The notes beneath the pieces are model-generated. The model did not search any database. It was not told where the DNA came from and was given only the letters and a program-made list of their open reading frames with translations. This document shows, piece by piece, positions 1 through 19,230 of a DNA stretch of 64,000 nt. The stretch comes from Candidatus Bathyarchaeota archaeon (lineage in GTDB: Archaea > Thermoproteota > Bathyarchaeia > TCS64), in NCBI GenBank assembly GCA_026014875.1, contig JAOZHO010000039.1:1-64000 (forward strand). Reading direction: 5' to 3'. Each line of letters starts with the position of its first letter. Positions within the stretch are counted from its first letter, which is position 1. Both the position numbers and the translations under genes were made by a program.

Positions 1-191
1 GACCGGGTATTGATTTTAGGTTTTTTTCTATTTTAAGCACTCTAGTCTTCTCATTATACCTATTTATCAATCAAGTTAACACAGAAATCAGCTATAAACC
101 AGTCTATCTATCCTCATCAAATGAATTTCTAAACAGCCTAGCGCGCGGGAAATTCAACCTACGTGTTACATGAAAGATGCGCAGAATCGTA

Positions 192-1751: not shown

Positions 1752-1828
1752 CGGGCTCGGTGGGATTCGAACCCACGCTCATCAGCTCCGCAGGCTGACG
1801 TCTTATCCTGACTTTAGATCACGAGCCC
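1752..1828 (-). tRNA. tRNA-Arg (anticodon GCG)
   Basis: Read on the minus strand it folds as a tRNA. The acceptor stem GGGCTCG/CGAGCCC is perfect. The anticodon stem TCAGC/GCTGA encloses loop CTGCGGA, giving anticodon GCG (codon CGC). The T-arm is GTGGG-TTCGAAT-CCCAC. The D-arm is the weak part: three good pairs and a long 12-base loop containing GG. CCA is not encoded. Its 3' end plus about 12 bases of downstream flank recur at 4709-4743 and 8411-8446. Confidence 0.9.
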
Positions 1829-2854: not shown

Positions 2855-2918
2855 GTGCGGGGGCGGGATTCGAACCCCACTACCGGTGGAGATATCTCCC
2901 GTCCCTTTCCCCTTTTTT
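2855..2918 (-). repeat. tRNA-3'-end-like repeat, copy A
   Basis: On the minus strand: a purine tract (AAAAAAGGGGAAAGGGACG), then a palindrome GGAGATATCTCC, then CACCGGTAGTG, then the T-loop box GGGGTTCGAATCCC and a tRNA-acceptor-like tail GCCCCCGC. The T-stem pairs for only three bases and there is no 5' tRNA half, so it is not a functional tRNA. Copies B-E (4720, 6749, 7771, 9784) share the layout. Confidence 0.7.
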
Positions 2919-2934
2919 CACACAAAAAAAGGAG

Positions 2935-3306
2935 CTATAAATTCTTAGATCTGAGAGCCGATATCAATTCATTGAACTCGTTATAATGACGAAACACTTC
3001 TATAAAGTCCTCTTTAGAGATATGCTTCTGATAATATTCAGAATTTAAAGTTTCAAATCTCTTGTTCAAGGTAGAAGATCTTTCGAATACATGAACTCTA
3101 ATCTCTTTTGTATTATAGAAACTTGGGGAGTATGGAGAGGAAAAACAAAGTTGTATCTCTAAGAAAATGATAGCAATTTGGATCAAAATTGTGCTATCGA
3201 TATGGACGGGCAACGAACAAGATATGCTTTGCATTTTTCTTCTCATATTAGCCGCAACGAGTACGATTTCATCACAGAAGGGCTGTTTGTTCATACACAT
3301 TCCCAT
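2935..3306 (-). CDS. Hypothetical protein
   Basis: A 123-residue frame, unrecognised. A hydrophobic stretch near residues 38-55 (STILIQIAIIFLEIQLCF) could be a membrane segment or a buried helix. The C-terminal half is polar and helical (KDFIEVFRHYNEFNELISAL after HIS). It ends 17 bases from repeat copy A. AT-rich composition like the genes around 3.3-4.6 kb suggests imported DNA. Support is only the open frame and plausible composition. Confidence 0.35.
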   Translation of the reverse strand: MGMCMNKQPFCDEIVLVAANMRRKMQSISCSLPVHIDSTILIQIAIIFLEIQLCFSSPYSPSFYNTKEIRVHVFERSSTLNKRFETLNSEYYQKHISKEDFIEVFRHYNEFNELISALRSKNL

Positions 3307-3619
3307 CTTTCAGATTTATTTAAATCATAAGGGGGGCACACATCGGGGACTGGAGTGCTTACGTTCAGTAACCAGGTTTTGGGAATAGCTACGACCCAAC
3401 GATGTTCAAGCATAAATCTATGATATGGTGAATGTGTCAAAAAAAATTAACAATAACGATGTATGTGTGATATTCCCAGTTAAAGTTAACATATACTGTA
3501 AATTGTAACAAAAACTCTTAAATCGTAGTGACTGCCTCCTTAAAAACCGAAGAGAAGGGGTCGAGGGGGGTTCCTAATCGAACTCAAATGGTTCTAAGTT
3601 TAGAAGGCATCGTAGAACG
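3307..3619. other. AT-rich intergenic stretch, no gene seen
   Basis: No credible frame or RNA. The last 40 bases (3578-3619) are open in the frame of the next gene and encode residues resembling the start of its DNA-binding domain, which suggests the downstream gene has lost its original start. Confidence 0.4.
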
Positions 3620-3883
3620 GTGTTTGAAATTTATGCCGATATCTTACACATTTGTAAAGATGGCAAGTTAATATCACACGTAGTAGGAAGAGCGGGCCTG
3701 AATTTCAAGAATATGCCTCGACACCTTAGAACTTTAAAGGATAACGAATTAATAGTTATAATTGAACAACATGGACATCCTATGTTATATAAAACAACTG
3801 ATAAAGGTTTACAATATATAGAAACCTATAATGAACTAATGAAATTTGTACCTAATAAACCAATAATAAGAATACTTTATTAA
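3620..3883 (+). CDS. Winged-helix DNA-binding protein (HTH_45/ArnR-like), probably 5'-truncated
   Basis: An 87-residue single winged helix. The sequence EIYADILHICKDG, then LNFKNMPRHLRTLKDNELI, then a wing ending YKTTDKGLQYIETYNEL is the pattern of the archaeal HTH_45 family: helix 1, recognition helix, beta wing with TTDKG. The only usable start in frame is GTG 3620. The codons before it read RRHRRT, which normally precede EIYADIL in this family, so the natural N-terminus extended further and its start codon is lost. Likely a small regulator of a mobile element. Regulatory target unknown. Confidence 0.65.
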   Translation: MFEIYADILHICKDGKLISHVVGRAGLNFKNMPRHLRTLKDNELIVIIEQHGHPMLYKTTDKGLQYIETYNELMKFVPNKPIIRILY

Positions 3884-4031
3884 GCCTTTTTATAAATGAT
3901 TAAATAAAATCAATCTAAAAAATTAGTAATAAAGTTATTTCTAAACATGGTGATACTTATCAACATTAAGTATTAAAGGGATGGAGCTGTTCTTTATATA
4001 CAAAAATTATTCCACACGATTAAAATGTAGA

Positions 4032-4183
4032 AAAACACCTCCAAGCCTTTAATCAGTAATATAATGATATTCAAAACACCTCCAAGCCTTTAATCAGTAA
4101 TATAATGATATTCAAAACACCTCCAAGCCTTTAATCAGTAATATAATGATATTCAAAACACCTCCAAGCCTTTAATCAGTAAT
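4032..4183. repeat. Tandem direct repeat, 41-bp unit, four copies (last partial)
   Basis: Units begin at 4032, 4073, 4114 and 4155 with exact 41-base spacing. Each starts AAAACACCTCCAAGCCTTTA and continues to ATGATATTC. The first three are full and essentially identical; the fourth matches for 29 bases. There are no spacers, so it is not CRISPR. Flanks are AT-rich. Such arrays serve as replication-initiator or partition sites (iterons) on archaeal plasmids and viruses; that role here is inference. Confidence 0.9.
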
Positions 4184-4258
4184 AATGAATAAATTATCCG
4201 GAATACAATTAGTGTAGTGACATATATTATTTAAATAACATGGTAAAAAACGATTGAA

Positions 4259-4651
4259 ATGCTGATGAAACCCTGGCAAAAATTAATACTATTTCTTCCA
4301 CGGTGTTATGCCTGGAGCAGACTTACCGACTGGTATATTAACAATGCCAGGATCCCGCATGCAGTATCATATCTCGTGAATGATTTCACACCGGCCTTTT
4401 GGCTTCACGAGCACATTGCCCCGTTTGAGCTGTGGACTCCGGACCCGAAGCGATTGCTTGAAACAATCTATATTTATGAGGATAAAAGACAGGAATTTTG
4501 TCTTGCCTTTCAGGAGTCCGGTAATAAATTTGTTCCATGCACAGACTGGACAATAAAGAATCTTGAAAAAAATTATGACCATGTTGATCTCCTTGAAAAC
4601 TTTGTTTTTAGTGGAAAAGAGGTAAGTCCGATTGTCTTTAAAAATTACTAA
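4259..4651 (+). CDS. Hypothetical protein of the AT-rich island
   Basis: A 130-residue protein that I cannot assign. It is rich in aromatic residues (six tryptophans, many tyrosines and phenylalanines) with no membrane segment or known metal motif. Features: PRCYAWSRLTDWYINNARIP near the start, FWLHEHIAPFELWTPDPKR in the middle, and a polar C-terminus. It starts 75 bases after the 41-bp array and ends 68 bases before repeat copy B. Low-GC codon use differs from the core genes of the window, which fits recent import. Possibly an element-encoded gene; function not inferable. Confidence 0.5.
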   Translation: MLMKPWQKLILFLPRCYAWSRLTDWYINNARIPHAVSYLVNDFTPAFWLHEHIAPFELWTPDPKRLLETIYIYEDKRQEFCLAFQESGNKFVPCTDWTIKNLEKNYDHVDLLENFVFSGKEVSPIVFKNY

Positions 4652-4719
4652 ACGAAAAGTGTGTGTGGAGGCTAAAATTTAATCCCGTACGCACAACAGG
4701 GGGCTAGGTTCAGTAAAAA

Positions 4720-4792
4720 GCGGGCTCGGTGGGATTCGAACCCTCCAACCAGTGGAGACAATCTCCCACATATTTCCCTTTTTCTTTTCTTA
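4720..4792 (-). repeat. tRNA-3'-end-like repeat, copy B, joined to a tRNA-Arg 3' end
   Basis: Positions 4720-4743 are identical to 1751-1774, the 3' end of tRNA-Arg. Beyond the T-loop box the sequence switches to the repeat core: on the minus strand GGGAAATATGTGGGAGA, TTG, TCTCCACTGGT. GTGG.GAGA/TCTCCAC makes a strong hairpin. The join at the T-loop box shows the two parts recombine at GGGTTCGAATCCC. Confidence 0.75.
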
Positions 4793-4940
4793 GGAAAGTG
4801 GGCAGTCAAGTAGATTTTTCTTGGATATTGTTCCCGTCTTAATGATATCGCTTGATTTTTCCATCGCCTATGGGTTGATGATGAAGTAATTCATGCAAAC
4901 CTAATTTTATGGGGAAGACCCATCAGTAGAGGGGAAAATC

Positions 4941-6617
4941 TTGACCGAAGCATCGATGGGGAAAATGGGGCCGAAGCCCGTGGTACGCAACAAACGCGCA
5001 GTGTGCAGCAGCTCGCATGCCAGAGTTACCGAAACAATGCTACAAGTGATGAAAGACGGCGGCAACGCTGTGGACGCCACGATCGCCGGCAGCATGATCC
5101 AAGCCGTGGTGGAGCCCCACATGACCAACCACACGGGCAGCGTCGCATTTCTCTACTGGGAGGCTGACTCCGGCCACACGTACCAGCTGAACGGTTCAGG
5201 CACCCTCGTCCCCGGCTTGCCCCCCTTCCGGCCTGTTCCCGGTCTATCTGGATCGCATCTATCTGGGCCCGGCCACAATCCATGCGCGTGCATTCCCGGC
5301 TTCATGCCCTCGATGGCGGCGTTGCACGAACGCTTCGGCAGCCAACCGTGGGGTTATCTATGCCAGCCGGCGATCGATGCGGCGAGAGATGGGCACATAA
5401 TGTCATCCTTCGAGTATGCCGCGCTGAAGTCTGATCTCCGTCTCTACACGTATTTTCCATCAGGCCGTGCGCTGTACACGCCGAAGGGATTCCTGCCGGA
5501 CGTGGGTGAACGCTTCCGGAATCCGGACTTGGCCGAGACGCTGCAGCGGGTGGCCAGCGAGGGTCCATCTTACTTCACCGAAGGGGATTGGGCGAAGCAT
5601 TTCGTGGCGACCGCCAACGATCTAGGCTGGCCGATCAATTTGGCCCATATGACTGACATCCCGCCCGAGTGGGTCGATCCGCTGCGCTACGAGCATCGCG
5701 GGTACGAGGTGATTCAATACTACCCCCCTCAGCGAACGGGCGTTTTCACCGCCATCGTGCTCGGCATCCTGAAGCAGTTCGACCTCGAATCATTGGGTCA
5801 CTACACAGAGTCGGCCGAGGCACTCTATGTGATGGCGCACGCGCTGCGCTACGCCCACTGGGAGTTGGGTATGCTACGCGACCCAGCGGTTTTCGAGGTG
5901 CCGATGGACCGGTGGCTATCGCCCGAGTTCCATGCCATGGTGGCCGATATCATCTGGCACAGCAGACCTAAAAAGGACCTGAGGGAACACGTGCGCATCA
6001 TCGCCGGGGACGCTGGGCTAGCCGCAGGGGGCATAAGCCCCGTCGCCGCCAACGCTCAGCACCAGCCCTCCGGCAGTTGCGAGTTGAGCGTCGTCGACCA
6101 GGAGGGCAATTGGGCTCAGTCGATGAACACGCTTCAAGCGGGCGGCATACCGGGCGTCGTAGTGGACGGCGTGCCCATGGTCGGCAGCCACGCGAAAACC
6201 ACCATGGCCGCGCCCATGGAAGGGTGGTTCGCAGGCGGCGGCAGGTTGAGGTCTATGGTCGGCAGCACGATTGTGCTACGCGATGGCCGGCCGTGGCTGG
6301 GACTCGGCACTCCAGGGTACGTCTATGCGACGATTCCGCAAGTGCTGTCAAGCATTCTCGATTACGGGATGGACCCCTACGAGGCATCGGTGCTGCCGCG
6401 TATGTTCCCCCTGTACGACGACTATGTGTTAGAGATCGAGAGCCGCATCCCGTCGGAGGTCGCCACCGGCCTAGCCAGGATGGGGGTCCTGCTGCGACCG
6501 CTGGAGCCGTACAACACGAGCATGGGTTCGTTCCAGATCAATTGGCGTGACCCGGAGACCGGCCTGCTCAACAGCAGCGCCGACCCGCGCCGCGTGGGAA
6601 CGGCAGCAGGATTTTAA
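4941..6617 (+). CDS. Gamma-glutamyltransferase / cephalosporin-acylase-like Ntn hydrolase
   Basis: A 558-residue member of the gamma-glutamyltranspeptidase family: the N-terminal GGNAVDATIAG motif (residues 40-50), NHTGSVAF, a large-subunit body, and the C-terminal small-subunit motifs SVVDQEGN, GSHAKTTM and LGTPG. The autocatalytic cleavage site, normally a Thr-Thr-His box before SVVD, reads G378-S379-C380-E381, so the nucleophile would be Ser379 (or Cys380) if the enzyme matures at all. No signal peptide. Start: TTG 4941 has AGGGG 9 bases upstream; ATG 4956 is the alternative. GC-rich codon use sets it apart from the AT-rich DNA just upstream and suggests transfer, perhaps from bacteria. 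Substrate unknown. Confidence 0.88.
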   Translation: MTEASMGKMGPKPVVRNKRAVCSSSHARVTETMLQVMKDGGNAVDATIAGSMIQAVVEPHMTNHTGSVAFLYWEADSGHTYQLNGSGTLVPGLPPFRPVPGLSGSHLSGPGHNPCACIPGFMPSMAALHERFGSQPWGYLCQPAIDAARDGHIMSSFEYAALKSDLRLYTYFPSGRALYTPKGFLPDVGERFRNPDLAETLQRVASEGPSYFTEGDWAKHFVATANDLGWPINLAHMTDIPPEWVDPLRYEHRGYEVIQYYPPQRTGVFTAIVLGILKQFDLESLGHYTESAEALYVMAHALRYAHWELGMLRDPAVFEVPMDRWLSPEFHAMVADIIWHSRPKKDLREHVRIIAGDAGLAAGGISPVAANAQHQPSGSCELSVVDQEGNWAQSMNTLQAGGIPGVVVDGVPMVGSHAKTTMAAPMEGWFAGGGRLRSMVGSTIVLRDGRPWLGLGTPGYVYATIPQVLSSILDYGMDPYEASVLPRMFPLYDDYVLEIESRIPSEVATGLARMGVLLRPLEPYNTSMGSFQINWRDPETGLLNSSADPRRVGTAAGF

Positions 6618-6748
6618 GAAGAGGCCCCGGAATCGCGCGAAGTGAAAAAAAGTGTGAGGAAGATTTCCACGTGTTTCGTGCGCACACTATGTACCCGTGA
6701 GCTTGTTGTAGGTGTGAAATGAACCTGCCCCTCTATTCTTTCACCTGA

Positions 6749-6797
6749 TGGATTCGAACCCCACTACCGGTGGAGATGTCTCCCGTCTCTTTCCTGA
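6749..6797 (-). repeat. tRNA-3'-end-like repeat, copy C
   Basis: Minus strand: CAGGAAAGAGACG, GGAGACATCTCC, ACCGGTAGTG, GGGTTCGAATCC. Nearly identical to copy A up to the T-loop box, then unrelated (ATCAGG). It lies between convergent genes (gamma-glutamyltransferase and DUF362). Confidence 0.7.
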
Positions 6798-6846
6798 TTA
6801 AAACACACTACCCGATGCATGCGCGAATCTAAGATCCGGTCTGTCT

Positions 6847-7677
6847 CTACAAGCCTCTATCCCAGACCCTGTGAACGGCCTCTATCCCGTCGCCCACGAC
6901 CTCAATATCATGCACCTCACCGAATCCCCCCTCGTGGAGCCACATCACGTGCTTTATGGTCTCGGGTTCGATACCTATGACCCTCGCGCCGGTGGCATCC
7001 GCCGCGACCGGGTCGGTGCTGGCGATTATGGCGTCCATCTTCACCGCGTTGCCCTTCCAGGGGCCCCTCCCCTCCTTCCCGTAGAAGCCGTCGATGACCG
7101 TCAGCGTCGGCGGGAGGGTGCTGCAGACATCGTGGACCACCTCGTTCGTGCCCTTAGCGTGGAACCGGAACTTGTGTTTCGTGGTGAGCATCCCGAACAT
7201 GTTCTTGAGGCCCATGGTGATGGTGGTGTGGTGGAGTGTCTTCATCGTCGCGGCGCTGATTATCGCCGACTCTGTGGCTATCTTGGCGACCTTGAAGCTC
7301 TTAATGGCCCTGGGCTTCTCCACGGTGAGTTTGACTTTCTCCTTCAGCCGCCCCATGTGGATGTACTCGGCTCCGAGGCGGTCTATGACCTCCATCATCC
7401 CTGTCTCGACCACCGCCTTATCCGGCGAGGTGATCCCTCCCTCAGTCTCCACGACGACGGCCCTCTTCCCGAGATCCATCACCCTGTTGAGGATCGCCTC
7501 GACCACGATGGGGTCCGTCGTGATGCCCGTCTCATACGTGTGGGACGTGATCAGGTTGACCTTGACGAGAACCGTGTCCCACCCCTTCAATGCCTCCCGG
7601 TACGGTATGAGATCGAGGGCCCGGTAGACCGGCTCCAGCCCCCTCTCACCCTTAACAACAGCCACAATCGAAGCCAT
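6847..7677 (-). CDS. DUF362 domain protein
   Basis: A 276-residue DUF362 protein. Visible family features: VLVKVNLITSHTYETGITTDP (metal/substrate-binding loop), VVVETEGGITSPDKAV, the NMFGMLTTKHKFRFHAKG block and the C-terminal IIASTDPVAADATGARVIGI. It lacks the ferredoxin (4Fe-4S) extension carried by many DUF362 proteins, so it is the stand-alone form. Biochemical role unproven; members occur near iron-sulfur and redox enzymes. Single gene flanked by repeat copies C and D. Confidence 0.85.
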   Translation of the reverse strand: MASIVAVVKGERGLEPVYRALDLIPYREALKGWDTVLVKVNLITSHTYETGITTDPIVVEAILNRVMDLGKRAVVVETEGGITSPDKAVVETGMMEVIDRLGAEYIHMGRLKEKVKLTVEKPRAIKSFKVAKIATESAIISAATMKTLHHTTITMGLKNMFGMLTTKHKFRFHAKGTNEVVHDVCSTLPPTLTVIDGFYGKEGRGPWKGNAVKMDAIIASTDPVAADATGARVIGIEPETIKHVMWLHEGGFGEVHDIEVVGDGIEAVHRVWDRGL

Positions 7678-7770
7678 TCAAGACGCTATACATCCGCCAT
7701 CTATTAAGAATCATGCGAAAAACATAACACCCAGAAACTGGAAATGGGCGACTCCGATACGGGTGAGCAG

Positions 7771-7822
7771 TTAAAACCCTACCCCCAGTGAGGGTATCTT
7801 CCGTCTCTTTCCCCTTTTTTTA
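7771..7822 (-). repeat. tRNA-3'-end-like repeat, copy D (degenerate)
   Basis: Minus strand: AAAAAAAGGGGAAAGAGACG, GAAGATACCC, TCACTGGGGGTA, GGGTTTTAACTGC. The purine tract and spacing match copies A and C, but the T-loop box has decayed. A different hairpin, TACCC/GGGTA, is possible. Confidence 0.55.
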
Positions 7823-8410
7823 ACAAGTGCGAGTAGCTCATGGCCCTATTGAAACCAACAAGGTGGTTCGGAGGTCTCTGCACGAAATATTGTGCATTTT
7901 CTGTGCTATGGGGGATTCGTTTGCAGTCTCTTGGGCCAGCTCTGCGGAGGGCGTATCACCGCTTGAAACGTACCTGCGCGCGAGCTATTGTCTCGGCTCT
8001 GTTTGCTTGATAAAGGATAAACTGCCCGTGCTGAGGCATTTACCCTGATTTAGTTCGGTTTGAAAGCTCCCATTAATGGGAATTAGGCCATAAGGTCCCA
8101 GTTCGTTGATTTTTTTTAGGGGGATCCCTGTCCCAGCGAAATGCGAAAAGCGAAGTCAACGCACCCCGGAACATGGGCTACAGCCTCAGGTTGGTGGTGT
8201 ACGAGCTCTCCAGGAGAACGTTTTTCGAGTGGAAAATCCGACTGCCCAATCCCCTTCACCTTGAATCCGATTTGCCTGAGACCCGAGACCCTGAACCCGA
8301 AGCCTGAGAACCCGACACCAGGAGAACCCCGTGGCCACGACCCAGGCCATGATGATAGCAAAGGTAGCCACCACCCCTAACAGGAAACGAAAGTAACTGA
8401 CCGGACCCGG
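7823..8410. other. Intergenic region without a credible gene
   Basis: Several short open frames exist on both strands, but none has family features or consistent codon use. A small inverted repeat CTCCCATTAATGGGAATT lies at about 8067-8084, and the stretch near 8270-8330 is a degenerate ACCCGA/ACCCTGA-type repeat. Confidence 0.5.
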
Positions 8411-8470
8411 TTGAGTGAAAAGCGAGCACGGTGGGATTCGAACCCAGTATCAAGGGGTGATATGGCTGTT
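8411..8470 (-). repeat. tRNA-Arg 3'-end duplicate, copy F
   Basis: Positions 8411-8446 match 1740-1775 with only two mismatches. The match covers the tRNA-Arg 3' end and 12 bases of flank beyond the tRNA. Continuing on the minus strand, 5' of the T-loop box is a hairpin TATCA-CCCCT-TGATA. It lies immediately after the truD stop, where a transcript would end. Confidence 0.75.
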
Positions 8471-8491
8471 TCGTGGTGTTCGTCTACGGGT

Positions 8492-9556
8492 CTAGGTTCC
8501 TTGCTCTGTCTTCATGAACTCCCTGAGCAGTGTTGTGGCGTAACCGCCCTTGTGAAGCATGAACGAAAGCTGAACTCCACGGGGAGCCTCGGTCACCTCG
8601 ATCCTGGGCGTCAGCCTACCGAAACGACGTGTGCCGGTGACCCTCATGCGCCTGAACGTCTCCAGGGACATCTCGGACTCTTCAAGTATCTCGGCTTCGA
8701 GGGCGGCTGCCTCTCCCAGCGGCTGGGACATCTTGTAACCGTATATGGGGGCCGTGAAGCTGATCTCCTGGGCTTCGTACCGGGGCTGCTCGGTCGAGGG
8801 GTCGTTCACCCAGAATATACCGCCGGTCTCATGTTTCTTCGCTATGTCGCCCAGCAGCAGCCTGTCGAAGAGGCCGCGCCTCATCCTCTCGGCCAGGTAT
8901 CTGTTGCATAGGTAGCTCCGGTACACTGAGACCAGGAGCTTGCCGAGCCACCTGTCGTTGAACGTCTTCTGCCCCTGAAGTATGGCCCAGCCCTCCCTCA
9001 CTTTCTCGCCGTCTCTCCCGATTCTCTGCTCGCCATAGTAGTTTGGCAACCCTTTCAGGTGAATCGTTTCGGCTATCCTCCTCGACCTCTCCGCGGCCTG
9101 GCTCGGGGGCATGCGTATGCCGGTGATCACTATTTTGAACCTGTTACCTATGAGGTGACCCGCCCTGAGCTTGTTGCCGTGAAACTTGGCCCAGTTCACA
9201 TTGACGTTCAATCTGCCCTCGATGAGTGCTGATGCGTCGTCGGGCCGCACGTCGTTCTTCTCGAAGAGTATGCTGAACGTCTGCGTGGTCACGGCGTGCT
9301 TGTCTTTGAGCCCCGCGGTGCCTATGTTCCGGGGTCTGAGGTTGAAGAGGTCCGCCAACTGGAGCTGCACGTCCCGGGTGGTCTGATTCCTCTTGGTTAT
9401 GTTGACGTAGAGGTGGCTCCCGTAGCCCGAGGGCTCGTAGAGGGCGACCTCTTCGACCATGAAATCCTCGGGGCGTGCCCTGATCCTGCCCCCTATGCCC
9501 TCCAGGTCAGCGGTGAGGTAGGGGAGTGACAGGTCGAGGGGCGGCGGCTTGATCAT
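8492..9556 (-). CDS. truD: tRNA pseudouridine synthase TruD
   Basis: Makes pseudouridine in tRNA (U13 in bacteria; archaeal and eukaryotic relatives, Pus7 type, modify several sites). Motif GLKDKHAVTTQ carries the catalytic aspartate (Asp85 from the chosen start). IRARPEDFMVEE at the N-terminus, KRNQTTRDV and NYYGEQRIGRDG are the other family blocks, with the TRUD insertion in the middle. I chose ATG 9556 (MIKPPPLDL): it gives 354 residues and puts IRARPEDF at the usual distance. An upstream ATG at 9667 would add 37 residues of unlikely composition. Single gene, divergent from the phosphatase at 9888. Confidence 0.93.
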   Translation of the reverse strand: MIKPPPLDLSLPYLTADLEGIGGRIRARPEDFMVEEVALYEPSGYGSHLYVNITKRNQTTRDVQLQLADLFNLRPRNIGTAGLKDKHAVTTQTFSILFEKNDVRPDDASALIEGRLNVNVNWAKFHGNKLRAGHLIGNRFKIVITGIRMPPSQAAERSRRIAETIHLKGLPNYYGEQRIGRDGEKVREGWAILQGQKTFNDRWLGKLLVSVYRSYLCNRYLAERMRRGLFDRLLLGDIAKKHETGGIFWVNDPSTEQPRYEAQEISFTAPIYGYKMSQPLGEAAALEAEILEESEMSLETFRRMRVTGTRRFGRLTPRIEVTEAPRGVQLSFMLHKGGYATTLLREFMKTEQGT

Positions 9557-9783
9557 TCTGTGATTTATCCCGCCGGGGTTCTTGAAGGGTTCTCTTTCGC
9601 TGATTAATTGGGTGAGGGTAGGGGAAAAAGCGGGGAAAATTACCCCAAAACCCCTTCCTCGGGACATATTGCGGCGGGGTTGGTTAAAGGGGTTGCGAAT
9701 AAAGTTGGGAAGAGCGTGAATGCACGTGCCTTAAAAACAATCGTTTTTAGAGTCATAATCATCCAATAGTTGTCTGAGAATAC

Positions 9784-9845
9784 GGGGACTGGATTCGAAC
9801 CCTACTGCCAGTGGTGGCGTCACCCGACGCTTTCCTTCTTTTTAT
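9784..9845 (-). repeat. tRNA-3'-end-like repeat, copy E
   Basis: Minus strand: AAAAAGAAGGAAA, then hairpin GCGTC-GGGT-GACGC, CACCACTGGCAGTA, GGGTTCGAATCC, AGTCCCC. The hairpin stem differs from copies A-C at nearly every base yet stays fully paired. Read on the plus strand it is GCGTC-ACCC-GACGC followed by TTTCCTTCTTTTT, a terminator-like layout, although it lies in the divergent truD/phosphatase promoter region. Confidence 0.7.
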
Positions 9846-9887
9846 GTGAGCCGTAGACTTATCTGAGCGCCCAGCAAACAAGAATCC

Positions 9888-10511
9888 ATGAGGAACGTCT
9901 ACGTTGTAACCCACGCACAGTCGCTCCACCATATCGAGAGGAGAGTCGGTGGGTGGTATGATACGTCTCTGACTGCCCTCGGGAGAGAGCAGGCAGAAAA
10001 AACCGGGCAATTCATAAAATCAGCCATCGACTCAACGGATGTCCAGTTGTTTTCATCCGATCTGAAACGTGCGGCGGAAACAGCGGGGATAATTGGCAAA
10101 CACCTCCAGAAGCCGGTCACGCTGGACTCGAGGCTGAGAGAAATGAGCTATGGGGACGCAGAAGGAAAACCCCAAAGCTGGTTCAATGACCAGATCGAGC
10201 CTCAGCCCAATGATGGTAACAGGCTTGACCACAGAGTTTACACTGGCGCTGAGAGTCGGTTTGAGGTCGCGGTAAGAGTCAGCGCAGCGTTGACTGATGC
10301 CCTCGATAAAGGTGCTCGAGACACGGTGATAGTGTCCCACGGGTTCGCCTCCACTTTCCTGTTCATGGCTTGGATGAAGGTTCCAGCGGATCACATGGAT
10401 TACTGCAACTTTTCCGCGAAACCCGGGAGCGTTACGATGCTACACGAGGACGACCTGTTTGGCAGTCGCTCAGTAACCTATCTATGCAGCACAGCCCACC
10501 TCAAAATATAG
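9888..10511 (+). CDS. Histidine phosphatase superfamily protein (phosphoglycerate-mutase-like fold)
   Basis: A 207-residue histidine phosphatase. The N-terminal RHG box reads VTHAQS: the catalytic His9 is kept, but the preceding Arg is Thr and the Gly is Ala. Other active-site elements are present: SSDLKRAAETA (second Arg), LREMSYGDAEG (acid/base Glu region) and VIVSHG (second His). The VGGWYDTSLTALG block after the box belongs to a recognisable subfamily that I recall having TH in place of RH. Acts on small phosphorylated compounds or phosphoproteins; substrate unknown. Single gene. Confidence 0.85.
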   Translation: MRNVYVVTHAQSLHHIERRVGGWYDTSLTALGREQAEKTGQFIKSAIDSTDVQLFSSDLKRAAETAGIIGKHLQKPVTLDSRLREMSYGDAEGKPQSWFNDQIEPQPNDGNRLDHRVYTGAESRFEVAVRVSAALTDALDKGARDTVIVSHGFASTFLFMAWMKVPADHMDYCNFSAKPGSVTMLHEDDLFGSRSVTYLCSTAHLKI

Positions 10512-10574
10512 ATCAATTGTATCTGGTCATTCGACGACCCTGCATAATAATCGAAAGAAGAAAGCCCAACAGAT

Positions 10575-10622
10575 TGGTGCGGGGGGTGGGGTTCAAACCC
10601 TATCACTAGGCTTGATACCACC
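10575..10622 (-). repeat. tRNA-3'-end-like fragment, copy G
   Basis: Minus strand: hairpin TATCA-AGCCTAG-TGATA, GGGTTTGAACCCC, then acceptor-like ACCCCCCGC followed by ACCA, as if from a CCA-encoding tRNA. No 5' half. Its hairpin stem matches that of copy F. It lies 64 bases after the phosphatase stop. Confidence 0.65.
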
Positions 10623-10780
10623 ATACAAATTATTCAATCAAATATTTTATCCTCGCTTCACCTCAATTGTAACATAGACTAAAGATGGTTGGGCACCATC
10701 TGAGGCGATGAGCGTCATCATCGATTGATAGATTTATCAGTTATCAATTTAGATCAGTCTATGAGGCGATTGAATTGGGT

Positions 10781-11223: not shown

Positions 11224-11287
11224 CTTCCTCGATAGCATGATAATGTTCGAGTTAATATGTTCTCCACCAATCCATCTCTCGGAATGA

Positions 11288-11337
11288 TGGGGCAGGGGAT
11301 AGATTTGAACCACCGCCCTCAAAGGCCACCGCATATA
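11288..11337 (-). repeat. tRNA-Met-like 3' fragment
   Basis: Minus strand: GAGGGCGGTGGTTCAAATC, TATCCCCTGCCCC. The T-arm and acceptor 3' side resemble the initiator tRNA at 19403-19477 (GGTCGGTAGTTCAAATCTACC). The 5' half is absent. Confidence 0.55.
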
Positions 11338-11370
11338 TTATGTAAAGAGATTCCACGTGAACACGGACCG

Positions 11371-11955
11371 TTAGAATAGTAAATCGTTATCCACCAAGAC
11401 TGCGCGTACCTTCACGGCGGCCTCCAGGACCTGCTCCTCGCTCTTGGCTCCCGTGATCACCAGTTTTCCACTGTTGAATATCAGGACCACGGTCTTGGGG
11501 TCTTTTATCCTGTAGATGGCGCCCGGGAACTGCTCCGGCTCATACATTATGTTGTCCAGCACATAGGCGGCGGCTTCGAGGTCGACTTTTGCGCCGACAT
11601 CGGCGGAGGCGACCATGTTCTGAACGGTTATCTCCGGCTTCTTCAAGACGGTGATGCCATTATCACTCAACTCCCTGACCACCTTCCTCACGGCGCTGCC
11701 CGCCATCTTGGCCGACTTTGCCCCCGTGCAGACCATCTTCCCCGTCGTGAAGATCAAAGTCTTGGTTTTCGGCTGCTTGAGAGCGAAGACTAGGCCGGGG
11801 AACTTTTTTGGCCGGTACTCCACGTTCTGGAAGGCCGCCATGATGGCGAGGAGGTCGATCTTCTGGTCCAGGGACGCGGTGGCGACCACGTTCTCGATCC
11901 GCACATTGCAGGGCCTGCCTGGGCTCTTCTCGGATTCTATAAGAGTGGTCTTCAT
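11371..11955 (-). CDS. tbp: TATA-box-binding protein
   Basis: General transcription factor that binds promoter TATA boxes and recruits TFB and RNA polymerase. 194 residues from ATG 11955 with a very strong ribosome site (GGAGGGGGAGGGAG) just upstream; the frame extends upstream to 12030 but this start is clear. The two imperfect repeats of the saddle are visible: NVRIENVVATASLDQKIDL with KFPGLVFALKQPKTKTLIF and TGKMVCTGAK, then ITVQNMVASADVGAKVDL with QFPGAIYRIKDPKTVVLIF and SGKLVITGAK. Full family length, no acidic tail. Confidence 0.97.
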   Translation of the reverse strand: MKTTLIESEKSPGRPCNVRIENVVATASLDQKIDLLAIMAAFQNVEYRPKKFPGLVFALKQPKTKTLIFTTGKMVCTGAKSAKMAGSAVRKVVRELSDNGITVLKKPEITVQNMVASADVGAKVDLEAAAYVLDNIMYEPEQFPGAIYRIKDPKTVVLIFNSGKLVITGAKSEEQVLEAAVKVRAVLVDNDLLF

Positions 11956-12417
11956 TCTCCCTCCCCCTCCTCTTCTGAAGGTCTGGGTACGTTGGGATGT
12001 CGCTGAATTCCACCAACAGAAGCACAACAAGCGCCGGTGTTAGTGGGACAATTAGAAGAACATGGTTCATTAATCGTCGGGCCCTTCCTCCCCTTGAAGA
12101 TCGTTGCAGTGCGGTATCTTCCCAGTTCGCATGAGCGCGAACCGCATGTTAAGTCAGGGATGGACGTAGATCTTGACAGCGCTCCAGATCGGATCATAAA
12201 CCCTCAGTCGCTCACGGGGGATTGACGCATGCCACGATAACTGTTTCCATTAGATTCCGCTCGGTTCCGTGGGATTGATGGAGCCTCGCTGTTCTTTATC
12301 CCTTGACTTCCGGGGGGATGAGGGTGCGCCTCCTTTCTTCTCGCACGTGCCGCCCCTGAAACCCGTCGCGGAATGAGCATAATCACCAAATATAACTTGA
12401 ACTAAAAAAACAACGAG
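11956..12417. other. Intergenic region between tbp and the small membrane-protein gene
   Basis: About 460 bases with only short overlapping frames of poor composition. The tbp end holds its purine-rich ribosome site. At 12387-12398 AAATATAACT is a good archaeal TATA box for the gene at 12418, about 25 bases upstream of its ATG. Confidence 0.5.
12387..12398 (+). promoter_or_regulatory. TATA box for a leaderless gene
   Basis: The box AAATATAACT is centred about 25 bases before ATG 12418. In archaea transcription starts about 25 bases downstream of the box, so the transcript would begin at or near the start codon. Confidence 0.5.
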
Positions 12418-12558
12418 ATGAACCTCGAAACCATAGTCACAAAATCAACGAGCCTTACAATACCCTTCATCCTGATCGCCCTCACAATCATTCTGGGGAT
12501 ATATGGCATCATTCTCTCCATGCGCCTCGGACGCAAAAAACCCGAGAACGCAACCTAA
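12418..12558 (+). CDS. Small single-pass membrane protein (46 residues)
   Basis: A 46-residue frame: polar N-terminus (MNLETIVTKSTS), one hydrophobic helix of about 22 residues (LTIPFILIALTIILGIYGII), then a basic tail with RLGRKK. Topology by the positive-inside rule is N-out/C-in. An AAATATAACT box sits 25 bases upstream, which fits a leaderless transcript. No family recognised. Credible because promoter, start and membrane segment agree, but the size makes chance possible. Confidence 0.5.
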   Translation: MNLETIVTKSTSLTIPFILIALTIILGIYGIILSMRLGRKKPENAT

Positions 12559-12750
12559 TGATCATGAAAAGCGCGCCGGGTTGTTTAAAAATAAGATTGG
12601 ACCGTTCCTCTTCACTCGATTGAAGCGCGCGCGACTAACACTAAATCAAACGGTACCGTAAACTTGGAGTGAAATATACCCACGGGGTCGTCCTGGGGAT
12701 TAGATTAAACAAGCCGTGAACCAAAAACTGCCCAGTTTGATGTTTTGTGA

Positions 12751-12812
12751 TGGTGGCGGGGGGTAGATTTGAACCACCGACCTTGGGGTCATGAGCCTCG
12801 CTGGCCTACATT
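12751..12812 (-). repeat. Initiator-tRNA-Met-like 3' fragment with anticodon loop
   Basis: Minus strand from about 12810: GGCCAGCGAGG, CTCATGA (anticodon CAT), CCCCAAGGTCGGTGG, TTCAAATC, TACCCCCCGCCAC. It matches the tRNA at 19403-19477 from the end of the D-arm through the acceptor 3' strand. The 5' acceptor strand and most of the D-arm are missing. Confidence 0.7.
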
Positions 12813-12904
12813 ATGAACGTTATTAGTGACCTGGACTTGGTCAGATCCCATTCCATAACCTGTTCCAAGGATACAAATACCGTGAAAACATATTTTGGTT
12901 CACT

Positions 12905-13657
12905 ATGAAAAATCTGCTCAAAGAAAAGCTCCGCAAAGGAGAAAACGCTGTCGGGACCTTCATCGAGCTCGGGCATCCTGACGTGGCCGAGATTCTCAGC
13001 CACAGTGGATTCGACTGGCTGCTGATCGATGGGGAGCATAGCCCCATGGGGTTTGAGACCATGGAGCGTATGCTTCAGGCCATGGTGGGTACGGACTGCA
13101 CGCCAATCATCCGACCCCAATGGAACGATCCCGTCATCATCAAGCGGGTGCTGGACCTCGGGGCGCATGGGATCGTCGTGCCCTGGGTGAACACGAAGGA
13201 GGAAGCGGAGGCGGCGGTGAGTGCGGCGAGGTATCCCCCGGAGGGCATCAGGGGCTGGGGTCCGAGGAGGGCGTCGAGGTGGGACCCCGATTACAGGGAC
13301 ACCGCCAACGAGGAGATACTCGTGGCCGTTCAGGTCGAGACGCAGATGAGCCTCGATAACCTCGATGCCATCATGGGGGTCGACGGGGTCGATGCCTGTT
13401 ACGTCGGTCCCTGGGACCTGAGCAACAACCTCGGGTTCAGCGTCCCACCTGACTACGATAACAAGGCATTCATCGACGCCATCGAGCACGTGCTCGGAGT
13501 GGCCACTGACCACAGCAAGCCTGCCGGTATGTGGTGTAACCTCGATAATGTGGTCTGGGCCGTGGGGAAGGGGTTCAGGTTTAACACCGTCATCGACGCC
13601 GATACGATGCTGGCGTATGGCGCTGCTGAGGCCGTGAAGAGGGGAAGGGGAGACTGA
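12905..13657 (+). CDS. HpcH/HpaI-type class II aldolase (2-keto-3-deoxy acid aldolase family)
   Basis: A 250-residue metal-dependent aldolase that cleaves 4-hydroxy-2-oxo acids to pyruvate plus an aldehyde; the exact substrate (keto-deoxy sugar acid, hydroxy-oxo-heptanedioate, etc.) cannot be read from sequence. Key residues: catalytic His45 in IDGEHSP, Arg70 in IIRPQW (pyruvate carboxylate/carbonyl binding), metal ligands Glu145 in VQVET and Asp171 in VGPWDLS. YPPEGIRGWGPRRA is the family signature loop. Full length. Cytosolic. Single gene, followed by a convergent dehydrogenase. Confidence 0.9.
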   Translation: MKNLLKEKLRKGENAVGTFIELGHPDVAEILSHSGFDWLLIDGEHSPMGFETMERMLQAMVGTDCTPIIRPQWNDPVIIKRVLDLGAHGIVVPWVNTKEEAEAAVSAARYPPEGIRGWGPRRASRWDPDYRDTANEEILVAVQVETQMSLDNLDAIMGVDGVDACYVGPWDLSNNLGFSVPPDYDNKAFIDAIEHVLGVATDHSKPAGMWCNLDNVVWAVGKGFRFNTVIDADTMLAYGAAEAVKRGRGD

Positions 13658-13755
13658 TTCTCTCTCAAATGTGAGGGCCCCCCCGTTATCCCTGTGTCTT
13701 CCTCGTGCGCAGCTCGCCGTGAATAGGACGTGTGCGCGCATTAAACCAAGAGGGT

Positions 13756-14529
13756 TTAAAGGAAATCTCTTCGTCCGCCATCGACCAGGAGGATTTTTCC
13801 GGTGATGTATCTCGATTCATCGCTTGCGAAGAACAGCACCGCGTTGGCGATGTCTTCGGGGGTGCCAGTTATCCCCAGAGACGACGCGTTTCTCCTTCCC
13901 TCAAGTAGCTTTTCGTATTCTTCATCGCTCCGAGCTTCTCCTCTAAGCATATCGGTGTCGACTGCTCCGGGTGCGACGCAGTTGACGTTAATATTATGTT
14001 TCCCGAGTTCGAAGGCTGAACTTTTGGTTAGTTGTATTACACCTGCTTTTGAGACGGCGTAGCTGTTATCGCCGGGCATGGCTATGCCGAACCCGGAGTT
14101 TGAGGAGATGTTCACTATCTTCCCATAACCCCGGTCTATCATGTATCTTGCGGCTATCTGGGTGCAGAGGAAGACGCCCTTGAGGTTGATCTCCATGTGT
14201 TTATCCCATATCTCATCGGTGGTCTCAAGCAGTGACGCCCCGATGGCTATTCCCGCATTGTTGACGAGAATATCGACCTTGTGGAACGCGTTTACTGTGG
14301 CTGTGAACAGGTTCTCCACCTCCTCCCTTTTCGAGACGTCGCATCTGACGGCTATAGCCTTTCCACCCATCTGCCTGATGGAGTTGACTACTTCATCCGC
14401 TTCGTCTCGGCTTTTACTATAATTGATCGTTACTGCGCAGCCGCATCTCGCGAGAGCTAATGCGATAGATCGCCCAATGCTACGGGAAGACCCAGTTACG
14501 ACCGCCACCTTATTCTTGAAATCAAACAC
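13756..14529 (-). CDS. Short-chain dehydrogenase/reductase (SDR)
   Basis: A 257-residue classical SDR, NAD(P)H-dependent oxidoreductase. Cofactor motif TGSSRSIG (13-20), NNAG (90-93), catalytic Ser142/143, Tyr157 and Lys161 (YAVSK), and the C-terminal ITGKILLVDGG. Arg-type residues after the glycine motif (NYSKSRDE) suggest NADPH use. Closest in look to 3-oxoacyl-ACP reductase/glucose dehydrogenase groups; substrate unknown. With the M20 peptidase and alcohol dehydrogenase at 14.7-17.0 kb, same strand, it may form a catabolic set. Confidence 0.9.
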   Translation of the reverse strand: MFDFKNKVAVVTGSSRSIGRSIALALARCGCAVTINYSKSRDEADEVVNSIRQMGGKAIAVRCDVSKREEVENLFTATVNAFHKVDILVNNAGIAIGASLLETTDEIWDKHMEINLKGVFLCTQIAARYMIDRGYGKIVNISSNSGFGIAMPGDNSYAVSKAGVIQLTKSSAFELGKHNINVNCVAPGAVDTDMLRGEARSDEEYEKLLEGRRNASSLGITGTPEDIANAVLFFASDESRYITGKILLVDGGRRDFL

Positions 14530-14719
14530 GCCAAATCACTTTTCCTAGAGAGATAATTGGATATTGAATAAATATTTTTTTGGCTTTCTCTAAGAGGATG
14601 TCGAGCTCGATCCTTGTTTTCTTTTGACTATACGTGAAATTATCTGATGCGGTTGTGAAAGGAAAGAGATGGGAGAAAATCCCACTGGTTACGGACGCGT
14701 GAGTGTTTTTCGAAGACGT

Positions 14720-15970
14720 TTATGCGATTCCTAAGAGATTCATGAAGAACAGCGCATATATCTTTGTATTATCGATGAGTCCATCGACGGTAGTAAACTC
14801 ATCGTAAGTGTGCGTATTTCCACCACGACCACAACCGTAACTCACGAAAGATCTATCAGGGTACTTCAAGTTAAACCATCCATGGTCGCTCGAACCACCG
14901 CCTACTGCATTGTTTATTTCCGGTGTGATTCCGAGTACTTTAGATGCAGACTTTTGAAGAGCCTCAACGAGAACGGGGTCAATGACCGAGACTGAGGGAT
15001 AAAACCATCTATCAGGCACGAATTCAACATAAGCGTCGAACTCTGGGTCTTCCTTCTTCAACTTGTCGACGATGGCCTGAACTTCCGCAAGAGTGCTTTC
15101 AAATGACTCGACTTGCGGGATAAACCTCCTATCTATCTGAACGGTGCAAAGATCTGGGACATTGTTCCCCGTTGTGAAAGCGTTGACCAGGTTGATCGAC
15201 AGTCTACCTTTGCCTTCGATTTCGAAATCTCCAGACTTGAACTTGTCCCTTCTGTTGTTCACATCTTCCCTGAGTTCTTGGAGACGAGCTATTAGTTTCA
15301 TAGCTTTTACAGCGGCGTTTATGCCTTGGTCATTTCGCCCGGTATGCTCAGTATGCCCCTTGACGGTTATCCTGTAATACGCACGACCGTTAGCGGCTAT
15401 CCCCATTTTATCCCCGTCGCCACCGCCGCCTGAGTATAGAAGATGATCTGTATCGCAATGGCCTTCATCCACAACATGCTTCATGCCTCGATGTCCGCCC
15501 CGTTCCTCATCGCAGACGAAGGCGAAGACGATGTCTCCTTTCAGTCTAACCCCGGCGTCCTTGATTGCTTTTATTGCGAATAATAGGGGTGGAATCGGGA
15601 ACTTGTGGTCGGAGACTCCCCGACCATAAATTTTACCATCTTCGATGGTGCCGCTGAAGGGACCACGGGTCCATTTTGCGATGTCGCCGGTTGGTACAGT
15701 ATCGTAGTGGGCATATGTGGTGATTGATGGTTTACCAGACGTGCCCTTATAGCGCGCCATCACATTGGGTCTGCCTATTGTCTCTTGTTCGATCCGTACA
15801 TCATCTAGGTCAAACTTCTTGACCTCTTCAACGAGGAATTCGCCAATTTCGGCTTCATTTCCAGTGTAGCTTGGTATCTGAACGAGTTTCTGCATTAGAG
15901 CCACAATGTCGTCCTTGGATTCATCTATGAGGTTTAGAACCTTTTTTTCTATATTGCTTGACATTTTCAT
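14720..15970 (-). CDS. M20 family metallopeptidase/deacylase (ArgE/DapE/carboxypeptidase type)
   Basis: A 416-residue di-zinc M20 hydrolase acting on an amide bond of a small acyl-amino acid or dipeptide. Zinc-site motifs: YAHYDTVPTGD (His, Asp), GRGVSDHK (bridging Asp), CDEERGGHRG (catalytic Glu plus Glu ligand), and a C-terminal His within GGGSSDHGWFN. The dimerisation domain lies between. ATG 15964 has GAGG at better spacing than ATG 15970. Substrate not deducible. Same strand as the alcohol dehydrogenase, 24 bases downstream of it, so probably co-transcribed. Confidence 0.88.
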   Translation of the reverse strand: MKMSSNIEKKVLNLIDESKDDIVALMQKLVQIPSYTGNEAEIGEFLVEEVKKFDLDDVRIEQETIGRPNVMARYKGTSGKPSITTYAHYDTVPTGDIAKWTRGPFSGTIEDGKIYGRGVSDHKFPIPPLLFAIKAIKDAGVRLKGDIVFAFVCDEERGGHRGMKHVVDEGHCDTDHLLYSGGGGDGDKMGIAANGRAYYRITVKGHTEHTGRNDQGINAAVKAMKLIARLQELREDVNNRRDKFKSGDFEIEGKGRLSINLVNAFTTGNNVPDLCTVQIDRRFIPQVESFESTLAEVQAIVDKLKKEDPEFDAYVEFVPDRWFYPSVSVIDPVLVEALQKSASKVLGITPEINNAVGGGSSDHGWFNLKYPDRSFVSYGCGRGGNTHTYDEFTTVDGLIDNTKIYALFFMNLLGIA

Positions 15971-15994
15971 TCCTCGTCTCGCGAGCGTGCTAGA

Positions 15995-17047
15995 TTATGA
16001 GTCTAGCACTACTTTGATGGAGTTTGTACCTTGTTTGTCAGCTGCAACCGTGAAGGCTTCGTTGATCTTCTCCAGGGGGAACCTGTGGGTGATCATCTCG
16101 GTTGCATGGAGCTTGCCTTTGCTCAACAGGTCCGTCACGATCTGGAACTCTCGATCGTTGCCCCAATGATAGAAGCCGGAGACTCCTATGAGGTCGACCT
16201 CACCCATTTGAAGCTTCCTCCAATCAACATGGAGGTTTAAATCAGTACTCGGCATTCCTACCATCCCGATTATTCCTTTTCTCCGCACCATCTCAACTGC
16301 CTGCGGCAGTAAGAAAGCGGATGCTCCTCCGCCGACACAGTCGACCACCACGTCGGCTCCCCGTCCATCGGTTAACTCCATGACTTTCGCTACTGGGTCC
16401 TCTTTCTTCGAGTTGATGGTGGCGTACGCACCTATCGTGTTCTTCGCGAACTCTAGGGGATGATCTATGATGTCGATAATGATTCCGTCGGCTCCCGCCA
16501 CATTGACCAGGTCAAGCAGGCTTAAACCGATGGGCCCTGCGCCGATGACTACAACTTTCTGGTTCATGTGTATGTCTAGTCTGTTTATTGCATGGACGCT
16601 TGTCCCGTATACGTCCATGATCGCGGCCTCTCCATACCCGACATGATCGGGTATTGGGAAAACGTGACTAGAGGGCCCTGCCACGTATTCACAGAAAGCA
16701 CGGGCGAATGTCTTGCCCCGTATATCGCCTTTATACGGGCAGATGTGGTACTGACCAACTTTGCACCAGTAGCATTCTCCACACGGGACGACTGAGTCGA
16801 CGCCGACCCTGTCGCCGACTTTCACGTTTGTTACGTCCTTGCCTACGGCCACGATGTCTCCGGCGAGCTCATGGCCGCTTATGCGGCCCACGGACGCAGG
16901 TACTGGTACTTTCCACCTGTGTAGGTCGCTGCCACAGACGCCTGCGCTCCTAATTTTTACTAATACGTAATCAGGGCGTGTAATCTCTGGCATTGGAACC
17001 TCTTTAATTTCAAAGTCTCCTTCAGCGGTTTTTACCGCCGCTTTCAT
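15995..17047 (-). CDS. Zinc-dependent medium-chain alcohol/polyol dehydrogenase
   Basis: A 350-residue MDR-family dehydrogenase, NAD(P)+-dependent, like sorbitol/threonine/galactitol dehydrogenases. Catalytic zinc: Cys in AGVCGSDLH and His-Glu in ISGHELAG. Structural zinc cysteines: CGECYWCKVGQYHIC. Rossmann motif VIGAGPIGLSLLDL, with an acidic residue after the second strand (IIDIIDH) indicating NAD+. ATG 17047 (MKAAVKTAEG) is the family-typical start; the open frame runs 21 codons further. Heads a likely two-gene unit with the M20 hydrolase. Confidence 0.9.
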   Translation of the reverse strand: MKAAVKTAEGDFEIKEVPMPEITRPDYVLVKIRSAGVCGSDLHRWKVPVPASVGRISGHELAGDIVAVGKDVTNVKVGDRVGVDSVVPCGECYWCKVGQYHICPYKGDIRGKTFARAFCEYVAGPSSHVFPIPDHVGYGEAAIMDVYGTSVHAINRLDIHMNQKVVVIGAGPIGLSLLDLVNVAGADGIIIDIIDHPLEFAKNTIGAYATINSKKEDPVAKVMELTDGRGADVVVDCVGGGASAFLLPQAVEMVRRKGIIGMVGMPSTDLNLHVDWRKLQMGEVDLIGVSGFYHWGNDREFQIVTDLLSKGKLHATEMITHRFPLEKINEAFTVAADKQGTNSIKVVLDS

Positions 17048-17186
17048 TGTTTTTCCCAACGTTAATCGTATGGTGTTATGCCTGTCTGTATTTAGATTTA
17101 TTCCGCGCACATTGATTTGATAAACCTATAAGAGGAATGTTTGATTCCTGTCCGCCTCCATCAATTGAAATAGATTCTGGGGATTT

Positions 17187-17241
17187 ATAATTTGAAATGA
17201 AACCCGTTTCGTGGGTTCGAACCCCGCCCCCCGTACTTTTA
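17187..17241 (+). repeat. Plus-strand tRNA 3'-arm fragment
   Basis: Plus strand: hairpin GAAAC-CC-GTTTC, then T-arm GTGGG-TTCGAAC-CCCGC with a full 5-pair stem (one G-T), then CCCCCGTA as an acceptor 3' strand. No matching 5' half nearby. The box GGGTTCGAACCC is nearly palindromic. The only such fragment seen on the plus strand. Confidence 0.5.
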
Positions 17242-17313
17242 ATTAATTAATGATATATCATATGTGAGATACACCTACACTATCATAGTAGTTACCACTC
17301 ATAACCCGAGAAA

Positions 17314-17347
17314 TGGTAGCGGAGGGTAAATTTGTATTACCATCCGT
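17314..17347 (-). repeat. Initiator-tRNA-Met-like 3' fragment (short)
   Basis: Minus strand: GATGGTAATACAAATTTACC, CTCCGCTACCA. It matches the T-arm and acceptor end of the tRNA at 19403-19477, including the encoded CCA, with several substitutions. Confidence 0.6.
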
Positions 17348-17406
17348 GTGTGGAGAAACGCGTCTCATTGTAGGTACCCACCGGATTCCTCGGAGGGGGA
17401 TGGTGT

Positions 17407-17713
17407 CTACTTCTCCGGGAGAGGATCGTCGAGGATGCCCCCTTCGAGCAGGCGATCTGCTATGCTGTATCCATCGTTTTTCTCGACGAGGCTGGTCTTG
17501 ACAAGTCTGTTCAGGGTGTCGGATACCGTCGGGTGGGGTAACGTGCGGCCTTCGTTGGCCTCCAGTATCGACTTGACCTGGCTCCAGCTCGTTTTCTCGG
17601 TTGAAGAGGTCTTTTCGGTCCTTCTTGGGGGGCTGATCGAAGTACAAGGTAGGGGTACCCCTACATAGTAGGGGTGGGGGTACTAAGAAATATTCAGTCA
17701 CAGAGAACGACAA
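17407..17713 (-). pseudogene. Archaeal ATPase (AAA, PF01637-type) with the NTPase core deleted
   Basis: The first part reads LYFDQPPKKDRKDLFNREN-ELE, the N-terminal signature of archaeal PF01637 ATPases. It runs directly, with a frame change, into TSWSQVKSILEANEGRT, then HPTVSDTLNRLVKTSLVEKNDGYSIADRLLEGGI and a stop at 17407. That is the C-terminal winged helix of the same family. The Walker A and B core, normally several hundred residues, is absent. So one internal deletion fused the two ends and the frame was lost. The palindrome TAGGGGTACCCCTA lies near the start. Confidence 0.8.
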
Positions 17714-17748
17714 CCTCCACTAAATCCAGATGGAGGTCACATGAGAAA

Positions 17749-19179: not shown

Positions 19180-19230
19180 AGATTTAATCCAATGCGCGTG
19201 CGCAATTACAATGGGAAATCAAAACAAGGT

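Follow-up and report, generated by a model that had tools for sequence, protein, structure and literature searches.

A short repeat occurs between the genes of a 64,000-nucleotide stretch of DNA from Candidatus Bathyarchaeota (contig JAOZHO010000039.1, positions 1 to 64,000), which raises the question of what this repeat does. The stretch, referred to here as the window, corresponds to contig C1 of a Bathyarchaeia metagenome-assembled genome (MAG) of 2.5 Mb, labelled G000. Bathyarchaeia are archaea that abound in sediments and of which few cultures exist, and to our knowledge the ways in which they acquire genes are poorly understood. An earlier note on the window described five copies of the repeat, A to E, each composed of a hairpin and a tRNA T-loop box, and proposed that it is a small RNA, a tRNA-derived mobile repeat, or an attachment (att) site of a recombination system using the T-loop. 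The last of these candidates fits our data: the copies are probably att-like recombination sites at the right ends of small cassettes, which are exchanged inside the T-loop core. No description of such cassettes in Bathyarchaeia was found in the literature searched, outside which many subscription journals lie.

Distribution of the sites

A sequence model of the site with 53 positions, R1, was used to search the genome and its relatives. It placed all five copies (repeat family D1) on the minus strand where the earlier note had reported them: site A at 2866–2918 (63.2 bits), B at 4732–4783 (42 bits), C at 6750–6798 (53 bits), D at 7771–7820 (48 bits) and E at 9791–9843 (47 bits), with E-values from 4e-17 to 2e-10. 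The T-loop box GGTTCGAATCC, with at most one mismatch, is present eight times in the window as compared to 2.0 times (standard deviation 1.45) in shuffled sequences, none of which reached eight. Sites A, B, C and E contain the box, as had been claimed for all five copies, whereas that of site D has decayed to GGGTTTTAACTGC. Two degenerate sites on the same strand had been overlooked. Site X (8422–8465) combines a decayed module with a core at 8434–8445 and a tRNA-Arg-like tail, and the other site (10590–10640) has the core GGGTTTGAACC at 10590–10600.

All genomes used in the analysis are MAGs. The family of G000 contains 27 genomes and is part of the 61 related genomes that were searched. The R1 model identified 21 module copies in G000 at E<1e-4 and 132 copies at E<=0.01 in the 61 genomes, 104 of them within the family, beyond which the matches are weak. 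Further copies thus exist in the genome and in its relatives, and the possibility, allowed for in the earlier note, that there are none is rejected. When 84,980 named genomes were scanned for an exact pattern of the site, only three contigs contained it, all from Candidatus Bathyarchaeota. Phage and plasmid records contained no match to R1, and IMG/VR none that holds up. Autonomous carriers of the site were therefore rejected; IMG/VR provided only three near-identical contigs, which have the 18-nt palindrome of the copies in common but not the site.

Structure of the site

The site is composed of a conserved arm of about 40 nt, P, and a 12-bp core, GGGTTCGAAYCC, which many tRNA genes carry unchanged in their T-loop region. 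In the aligned copies, an A-run is followed by GGGGAAAGAGAC, a palindrome, the motif CACYGGTRGTR and the core. The palindrome reads GGAGATATCTCC, and GGTGATATCACC in other genera. The better P copies are about 75–90% identical to each other over about 50 bp. The sequence 5′ of the A-run differs among the copies, except for a few that have about 30 nt in common.

The sequences 3′ of the core fall into classes. The 12 nucleotides following the core match a tRNA 3′ end in at least ten positions at 25 of 62 sites, as compared to about 0.8 sites expected by shuffling, and 12 of these 25 tails match in all 12 positions. The tRNAs matched are tRNA-Arg(GCG), two tRNA-Leu, one tRNA-Ser and one tRNA-Gln, the last two of which were named by eye from their anticodons. 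The earlier note was therefore correct in describing a 5′ module fused at the T-loop to different tRNA tails, and also in stating that site B continues as the 3′ end of a tRNA-Arg: its tail matches tRNA-Arg(GCG) at 12 of 12 positions and is followed by TTTTTACTGAACC. The tail of site A (2755–2865) is similar to the 3′ end of tRNA-Leu(CAA) and its flank, with 76% over 126 bp to the tRNA-Leu flank on contig C8. The left-end sequence at site X (8325–8446) aligns over 122 bp, with 88% identity, to the immediate 3′ flank of the functional tRNA-Arg(GCG) gene on contig C45. Another class of tails is a non-tRNA left end common to several sites, which follows the core of site C (GAATAGAGGGGCAGGTTCATTTC type).

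Arrays and their cargo

Neighbouring sites at most 6 kb apart are on one strand in 29 of 32 pairs (p=1.3e-6). Their spacings range from 0.1 to 5.5 kb, and most of the 29 same-strand pairs are less than 4 kb apart and form arrays of at least two sites. G000 contains 10 neighbouring pairs within 6 kb, as compared to about one by chance. Many of the site-to-site intervals are nearly filled by a single gene, and the orientation of the genes relative to the site is mixed. The shortest unit, of 106 bp (contig C38, 3107 to 3213), is present at two places in G000. Arrays are located downstream of, and codirectional with, tRNA-Arg(GCG) in G000 and G001, tRNA-Leu(CAG) in G000 and tRNA-Leu(TAG) in G013. 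A restored tRNA gene at one end and a displaced 3′ fragment at the other were found for tRNA-Arg(GCG) with cassette K1 in G001 (L151) and for tRNA-Leu(TAG) in G013 (L078).

The array in the window runs on the minus strand from the nearest intact same-strand tRNA gene upstream, tRNA-Met (19403–19477), towards the contig end. The left border of the histidine-phosphatase cassette (9791–10589; gene 9888–10511, plus strand) is the degenerate site at 10590–10640, and its right end is site E, as identified by the model search and by comparison with genome G002. It is followed by the cassette of a divergent TruD-family protein (8434–9790; gene 8492–9667, minus strand), the DUF362 cassette body ending at site C (6799–7770; gene 6847–7677, minus strand), the gamma-glutamyltranspeptidase cassette body ending at site B (4784–6749; gene 4941–6617, plus strand), and a cassette body with HTH_45 and small open reading frames ending at site A (2919–4731). 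The cargo further to the right in the window includes DUF6506, TBP, SDR, M20 peptidase, ADH and MFS genes. Relatives carry beta-lactamase-fold hydrolases, GNAT, FBP aldolase, FBPase, Fic, 2-hydroxyacid dehydrogenase, MFS, eIF-1A and an AbiE-type pair. The idea that the cargo consists of single-copy housekeeping genes was not supported for TruD, which is here a divergent, patchy paralogue. The contig end (window 1–120) is identical to the end of contig C27 and the start of contig C38, and forms a branch of the assembly graph. The window array may continue on contig C38, which contains four more sites.

The only SHMT gene found in G000 is in a cassette beside tRNA-Leu(CAG) (L014 4993–6297; contig C50, 439 kb). 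It scores about 540 bits, as compared to 230–260 bits for the SHMTs of most relatives, a difference that suggests a horizontally acquired type. Similar to TruD, this SHMT type is patchy among relatives. The TBP gene of the window (11371–12030, minus strand) is inside the array region. G013 contains about ten related matches, and G008 and G002 each contain several; one of the matches is directly 3′ of tRNA-Leu(TAG) in L078.

Cassettes occupy different positions in related genomes

The phosphatase cassette is absent from G002 at the place orthologous to 9791–10589. When this segment is deleted in silico, the window and contig C90 of G002 form an unbroken 798-bp alignment with 91% identity; when it is left in place, the alignment splits into two blocks that meet at the core. 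In G002, the site that is degenerate at the left border of the cassette in the window is intact, and the cassette itself is on another contig (C2), between two sites 791 bp apart. The phosphatase cassette was thus gained or lost precisely at a site.

Cassette K1 is joined to the T-loop of tRNA-Arg(GCG) in G001 and to a P module in G002, where the similarity is 73.6% over 1013 bp and the homology starts from the first base of the core. In G000, K1 is on contig C38, with 91% over 1175 bp, and its left end also constitutes the 3′ flank of a second, diverged copy of tRNA-Arg(GCG) in the window (1752–1828, minus strand; 54.8 bits), which was not called by ARAGORN. SDR and DEAD-box genes of array intervals recur in other surroundings in G002 and G013. 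The proposal of a tRNA-derived mobile repeat was half right, since the mobile unit is the whole repeat-to-repeat interval with its gene and not the 60-nt repeat. Assembly chimerism is an unlikely cause of these differences because the P-cores are too diverged, yet every genome is a MAG.

Proposed mechanism of cassette exchange

Conservative site-specific recombination inside the core is the most economical reading of these observations, and the T-loop has precedents as an exchange point in phage Ms6 (PMC1762012) and in the Dehalococcoides ssrA islands (PMC3146451). A cassette would be the DNA from core to core, comprising a left end that is often a tRNA 3′ end, the cargo, P and the core. Recombination in the core would put a circularised cassette into a tRNA gene, which would be restored by the tRNA 3′ tail of the cassette. 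Alternatively, the circularised cassette may insert beside a core already present in an array. The same recombination would excise the cassette again. P may serve as an arm or second half-site common to all cassettes. The core is read in one direction, and successive insertions would therefore yield same-strand arrays of short cassettes. The exchange would be catalysed by a site-specific recombinase, most likely one of the tyrosine type that acts in trans; circular intermediates presumably exist, and the system is presumably active at present.

Several observations weigh against site-specific cassette exchange. No recombinase could be associated with the sites: PF00589 genes are dispersed, in most cases away from the arrays, and none was detected at E<=1e-5 in the site-bearing genomes G003 and G006. 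Only one complete pair of filled and empty places was worked through for the P family. Many sites have tails without remaining tRNA likeness, some sites are degenerate, and one trio on contig C27 is in mixed orientation, which indicates decay or rearrangement. Furthermore, circular forms and activity are invisible in MAGs.

The cassette genes scanned between sites contained no PF00589 domain. The tyrosine recombinases of the family are varied, and the contigs that encode them are mostly not those with sites. Two candidates for the cognate enzyme were rejected. The 325-residue integrase on contig C24, beside tRNA-Leu(TAG), has close homologues in only three other genomes and no link to P, and the integrase on contig C45 has its own palindrome and core and likewise no link to P.

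Alternative explanations

Serial accretion of large tRNA-targeting islands or viruses may have produced the arrays, so that the small intervals are leftovers of deletions and the sites are displaced, useless tRNA 3′ fragments. Integrase-bearing elements are indeed present at the same tRNAs: a stretch of about 27 kb on contig C45 (L012 8476 to L013 about 4690) has tRNA-Arg tails at both ends and a 406-residue integrase near its left edge (L012:9108–10328). SSV-type integrases overlap tRNA genes in relatives, and archaea are known to accumulate tandem integrations at a single locus (PMC8371274). Nevertheless, accretion is unlikely. Complete cassettes of about 0.8–1.3 kb have changed loci with their genes intact and with borders that run from core to core; one intact gene fills many of the intervals; and a single P module is common to cassettes with five different tRNA tails. 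The right end of the C45 stretch carries another palindrome, CGCTCGGTATACTGAGCG, and P therefore does not belong to this element in any obvious way.

Shuffling of the intervals could also result, without a dedicated enzyme, from homologous recombination between dispersed repeats, given that P modules are about 75–90% identical over about 50 bp and tRNA tails add at most about 35 bp. This explanation is quite improbable, since the identity at the junctions is short and diverged both for the phosphatase cassette (G000/G002) and for cassette K1, the 5′ half of the tRNA and P have only the core in common, and the same-strand bias and the insertion at several tRNA genes would be left to explain. 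A target duplication of the casposon type was dropped because it predicts a conserved left end right after the core, but that side varies.

The pairing of the hairpin bears on whether the repeat is an RNA. The earlier note had described a hairpin whose stem varies and stays paired. The stem of site D is unpaired, and the GCGTC/GACGC hairpin proposed for site E is in another register than the palindrome of the remaining copies (GGTGACGCCACC at the corresponding position). Across 70 copies, 85% of cells in the 4-bp stem are paired, as compared to 80.5% in shuffled sequences, which makes the proposed comparison with shuffled sequence borderline and the pairing weak evidence; the cassette explanation is independent of it. 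A single pair of columns changes from A-U to U-A in 12 of the 70 copies and is mismatched in 18. RNAalifold found no consensus structure for 13 copies, three of the four single copies that were folded together with their tails did not exceed shuffled sequences in stability, and Rfam at the gathering score gave no match apart from real tRNAs. A structured small RNA or tRNA-like RNA family is therefore very improbable: the T-loop box and a weak hairpin are present, and the copy at C38:3690 folds better than shuffled sequences (z −2.5), but no consensus fold emerged from the 13 copies, the covariation is weak, lineage-limited and accompanied by many mismatches, and conservation ends at the core, after which different sequences follow. 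A tRNA without D and anticodon arms, prompted by ACGGGAG near-matching CTCCCGT at C38:3690, was dropped because the matching 3′ strand is present only in that copy.

Relation to known systems

The closest known system to the proposed cassettes is that of the Dehalococcoides ssrA islands. These ssrA-GIs are arranged in tandem downstream of ssrA, a tRNA-like gene, and direct repeats of the ssrA 3′ end mark their borders. Each repeat is immediately preceded by a short, conserved non-host motif, and the exchange maps to the tmRNA T-loop (PMC3146451). They use one target gene and are several kb long, and 16 of them have a recognisable integration module with an integrase (PMC3146451). The Bathyarchaeia arrays share with them tandem units downstream of tRNA genes, 3′-end repeats, a motif (P) upstream of each core and a proposed exchange in the T-loop. 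They differ in using several tRNA genes as targets, in units that often contain one gene, and in the absence of an integrase from the intervals examined.

The core of integron attC sites is GTTRRRY. Integrons, including archaeal ones, are same-strand arrays of small, mostly single-gene cassettes with a palindromic site of about 55 nt, often without an integrase (CALINs; PMC9668308). The archaeal integron survey names neither Bathyarchaeia nor tRNA (PMC9668308). The arrays described here resemble integrons in the same-strand tandem of small cassettes, in the site with a palindrome at the cassette end, and in the precise gain or loss of a cassette. In contrast to integrons, their docking sites are tRNA genes, the gene orientation is mixed, and the core GGGTTCGAAYCC contains GTTCGAA or GTTTGAA, with a pyrimidine at position 4 in nearly all of 70 copies, and not GTTRRRY. 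No integron integrase IntI (TIGR02249) scored above the cut-off in the 27 family genomes. Since both the integrase and the attC core are missing, the arrays are not classed as an integron, although they work like an integron array. We tentatively propose that they may be an integron equivalent of independent origin in Bathyarchaeia, in which a trans-acting recombinase gathers and shuffles mostly single-gene cassettes at several tRNA genes through the shared P-core site, with the T-loop in the role of attI.

Mycobacteriophage Ms6, with attP AGGGGTTCGAATCCCCTTAGCTCCAC, performs site-specific exchange in the tRNA T-loop core AGGGGTTCGAATCCCC (PMC1762012). This exchange core is nearly identical to the one described here; nevertheless, Ms6 is a phage that encodes an integrase of its own and has a single attP, and neither cassettes nor arrays. 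Tycheposons and tRNA-repeat additive islands are cargo elements of 4–200 kb bounded by tRNA genes or their 3′ repeats, with a tyrosine recombinase (PMC10872708). The Bathyarchaeia cargo is bounded in the same manner, whereas the spacings are about 0.1–5.5 kb and the intervals examined contain no recombinase.

If the proposed cassette exchange takes place, it would be a route by which single metabolic or regulatory genes, such as those for TBP, SHMT, transporters and hydrolases, move between genomes, and would explain the gene turnover beside tRNA genes of Bathyarchaeia. It would also mean that integron-like cassette arrays can be built on tRNA T-loops instead of attI. Cassettes in MAGs can be mapped with the model of about 53 nt, and clues to the recombinase to seek come from the core.

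Other repeats in the window and its relatives

A second array is present in the window at 11287–19477 on the minus strand, where the intact tRNA-Met gene (19403–19477) heads partial copies of its 3′ half at 19221, 17748, 17314, 12751 and 11287. Fragments similar to the tRNA-Met 3′ half were also found in G002, G013 and G003 (L086, L148, L153). The fragments include the anticodon arm, and therefore the exchange point seems to differ from that of the T-loop family. Alternating GCGCGC-type motifs (GCGCGTGCGC and similar) recur in intergenic DNA adjacent to cassette borders and within tRNA-Met-type junctions of the window and relatives. Elsewhere in G000 (L097; contig C28, 96327–98190), two copies of one 107-nt tRNA gene, which contains extra sequence resembling an intron, are located on either side of a broken integrase, an arrangement also seen in SSV-type integration. 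The segment 4032–4184 of the window is a tandem direct repeat with a 41-bp unit, the overlapping copies of which are 100% identical.

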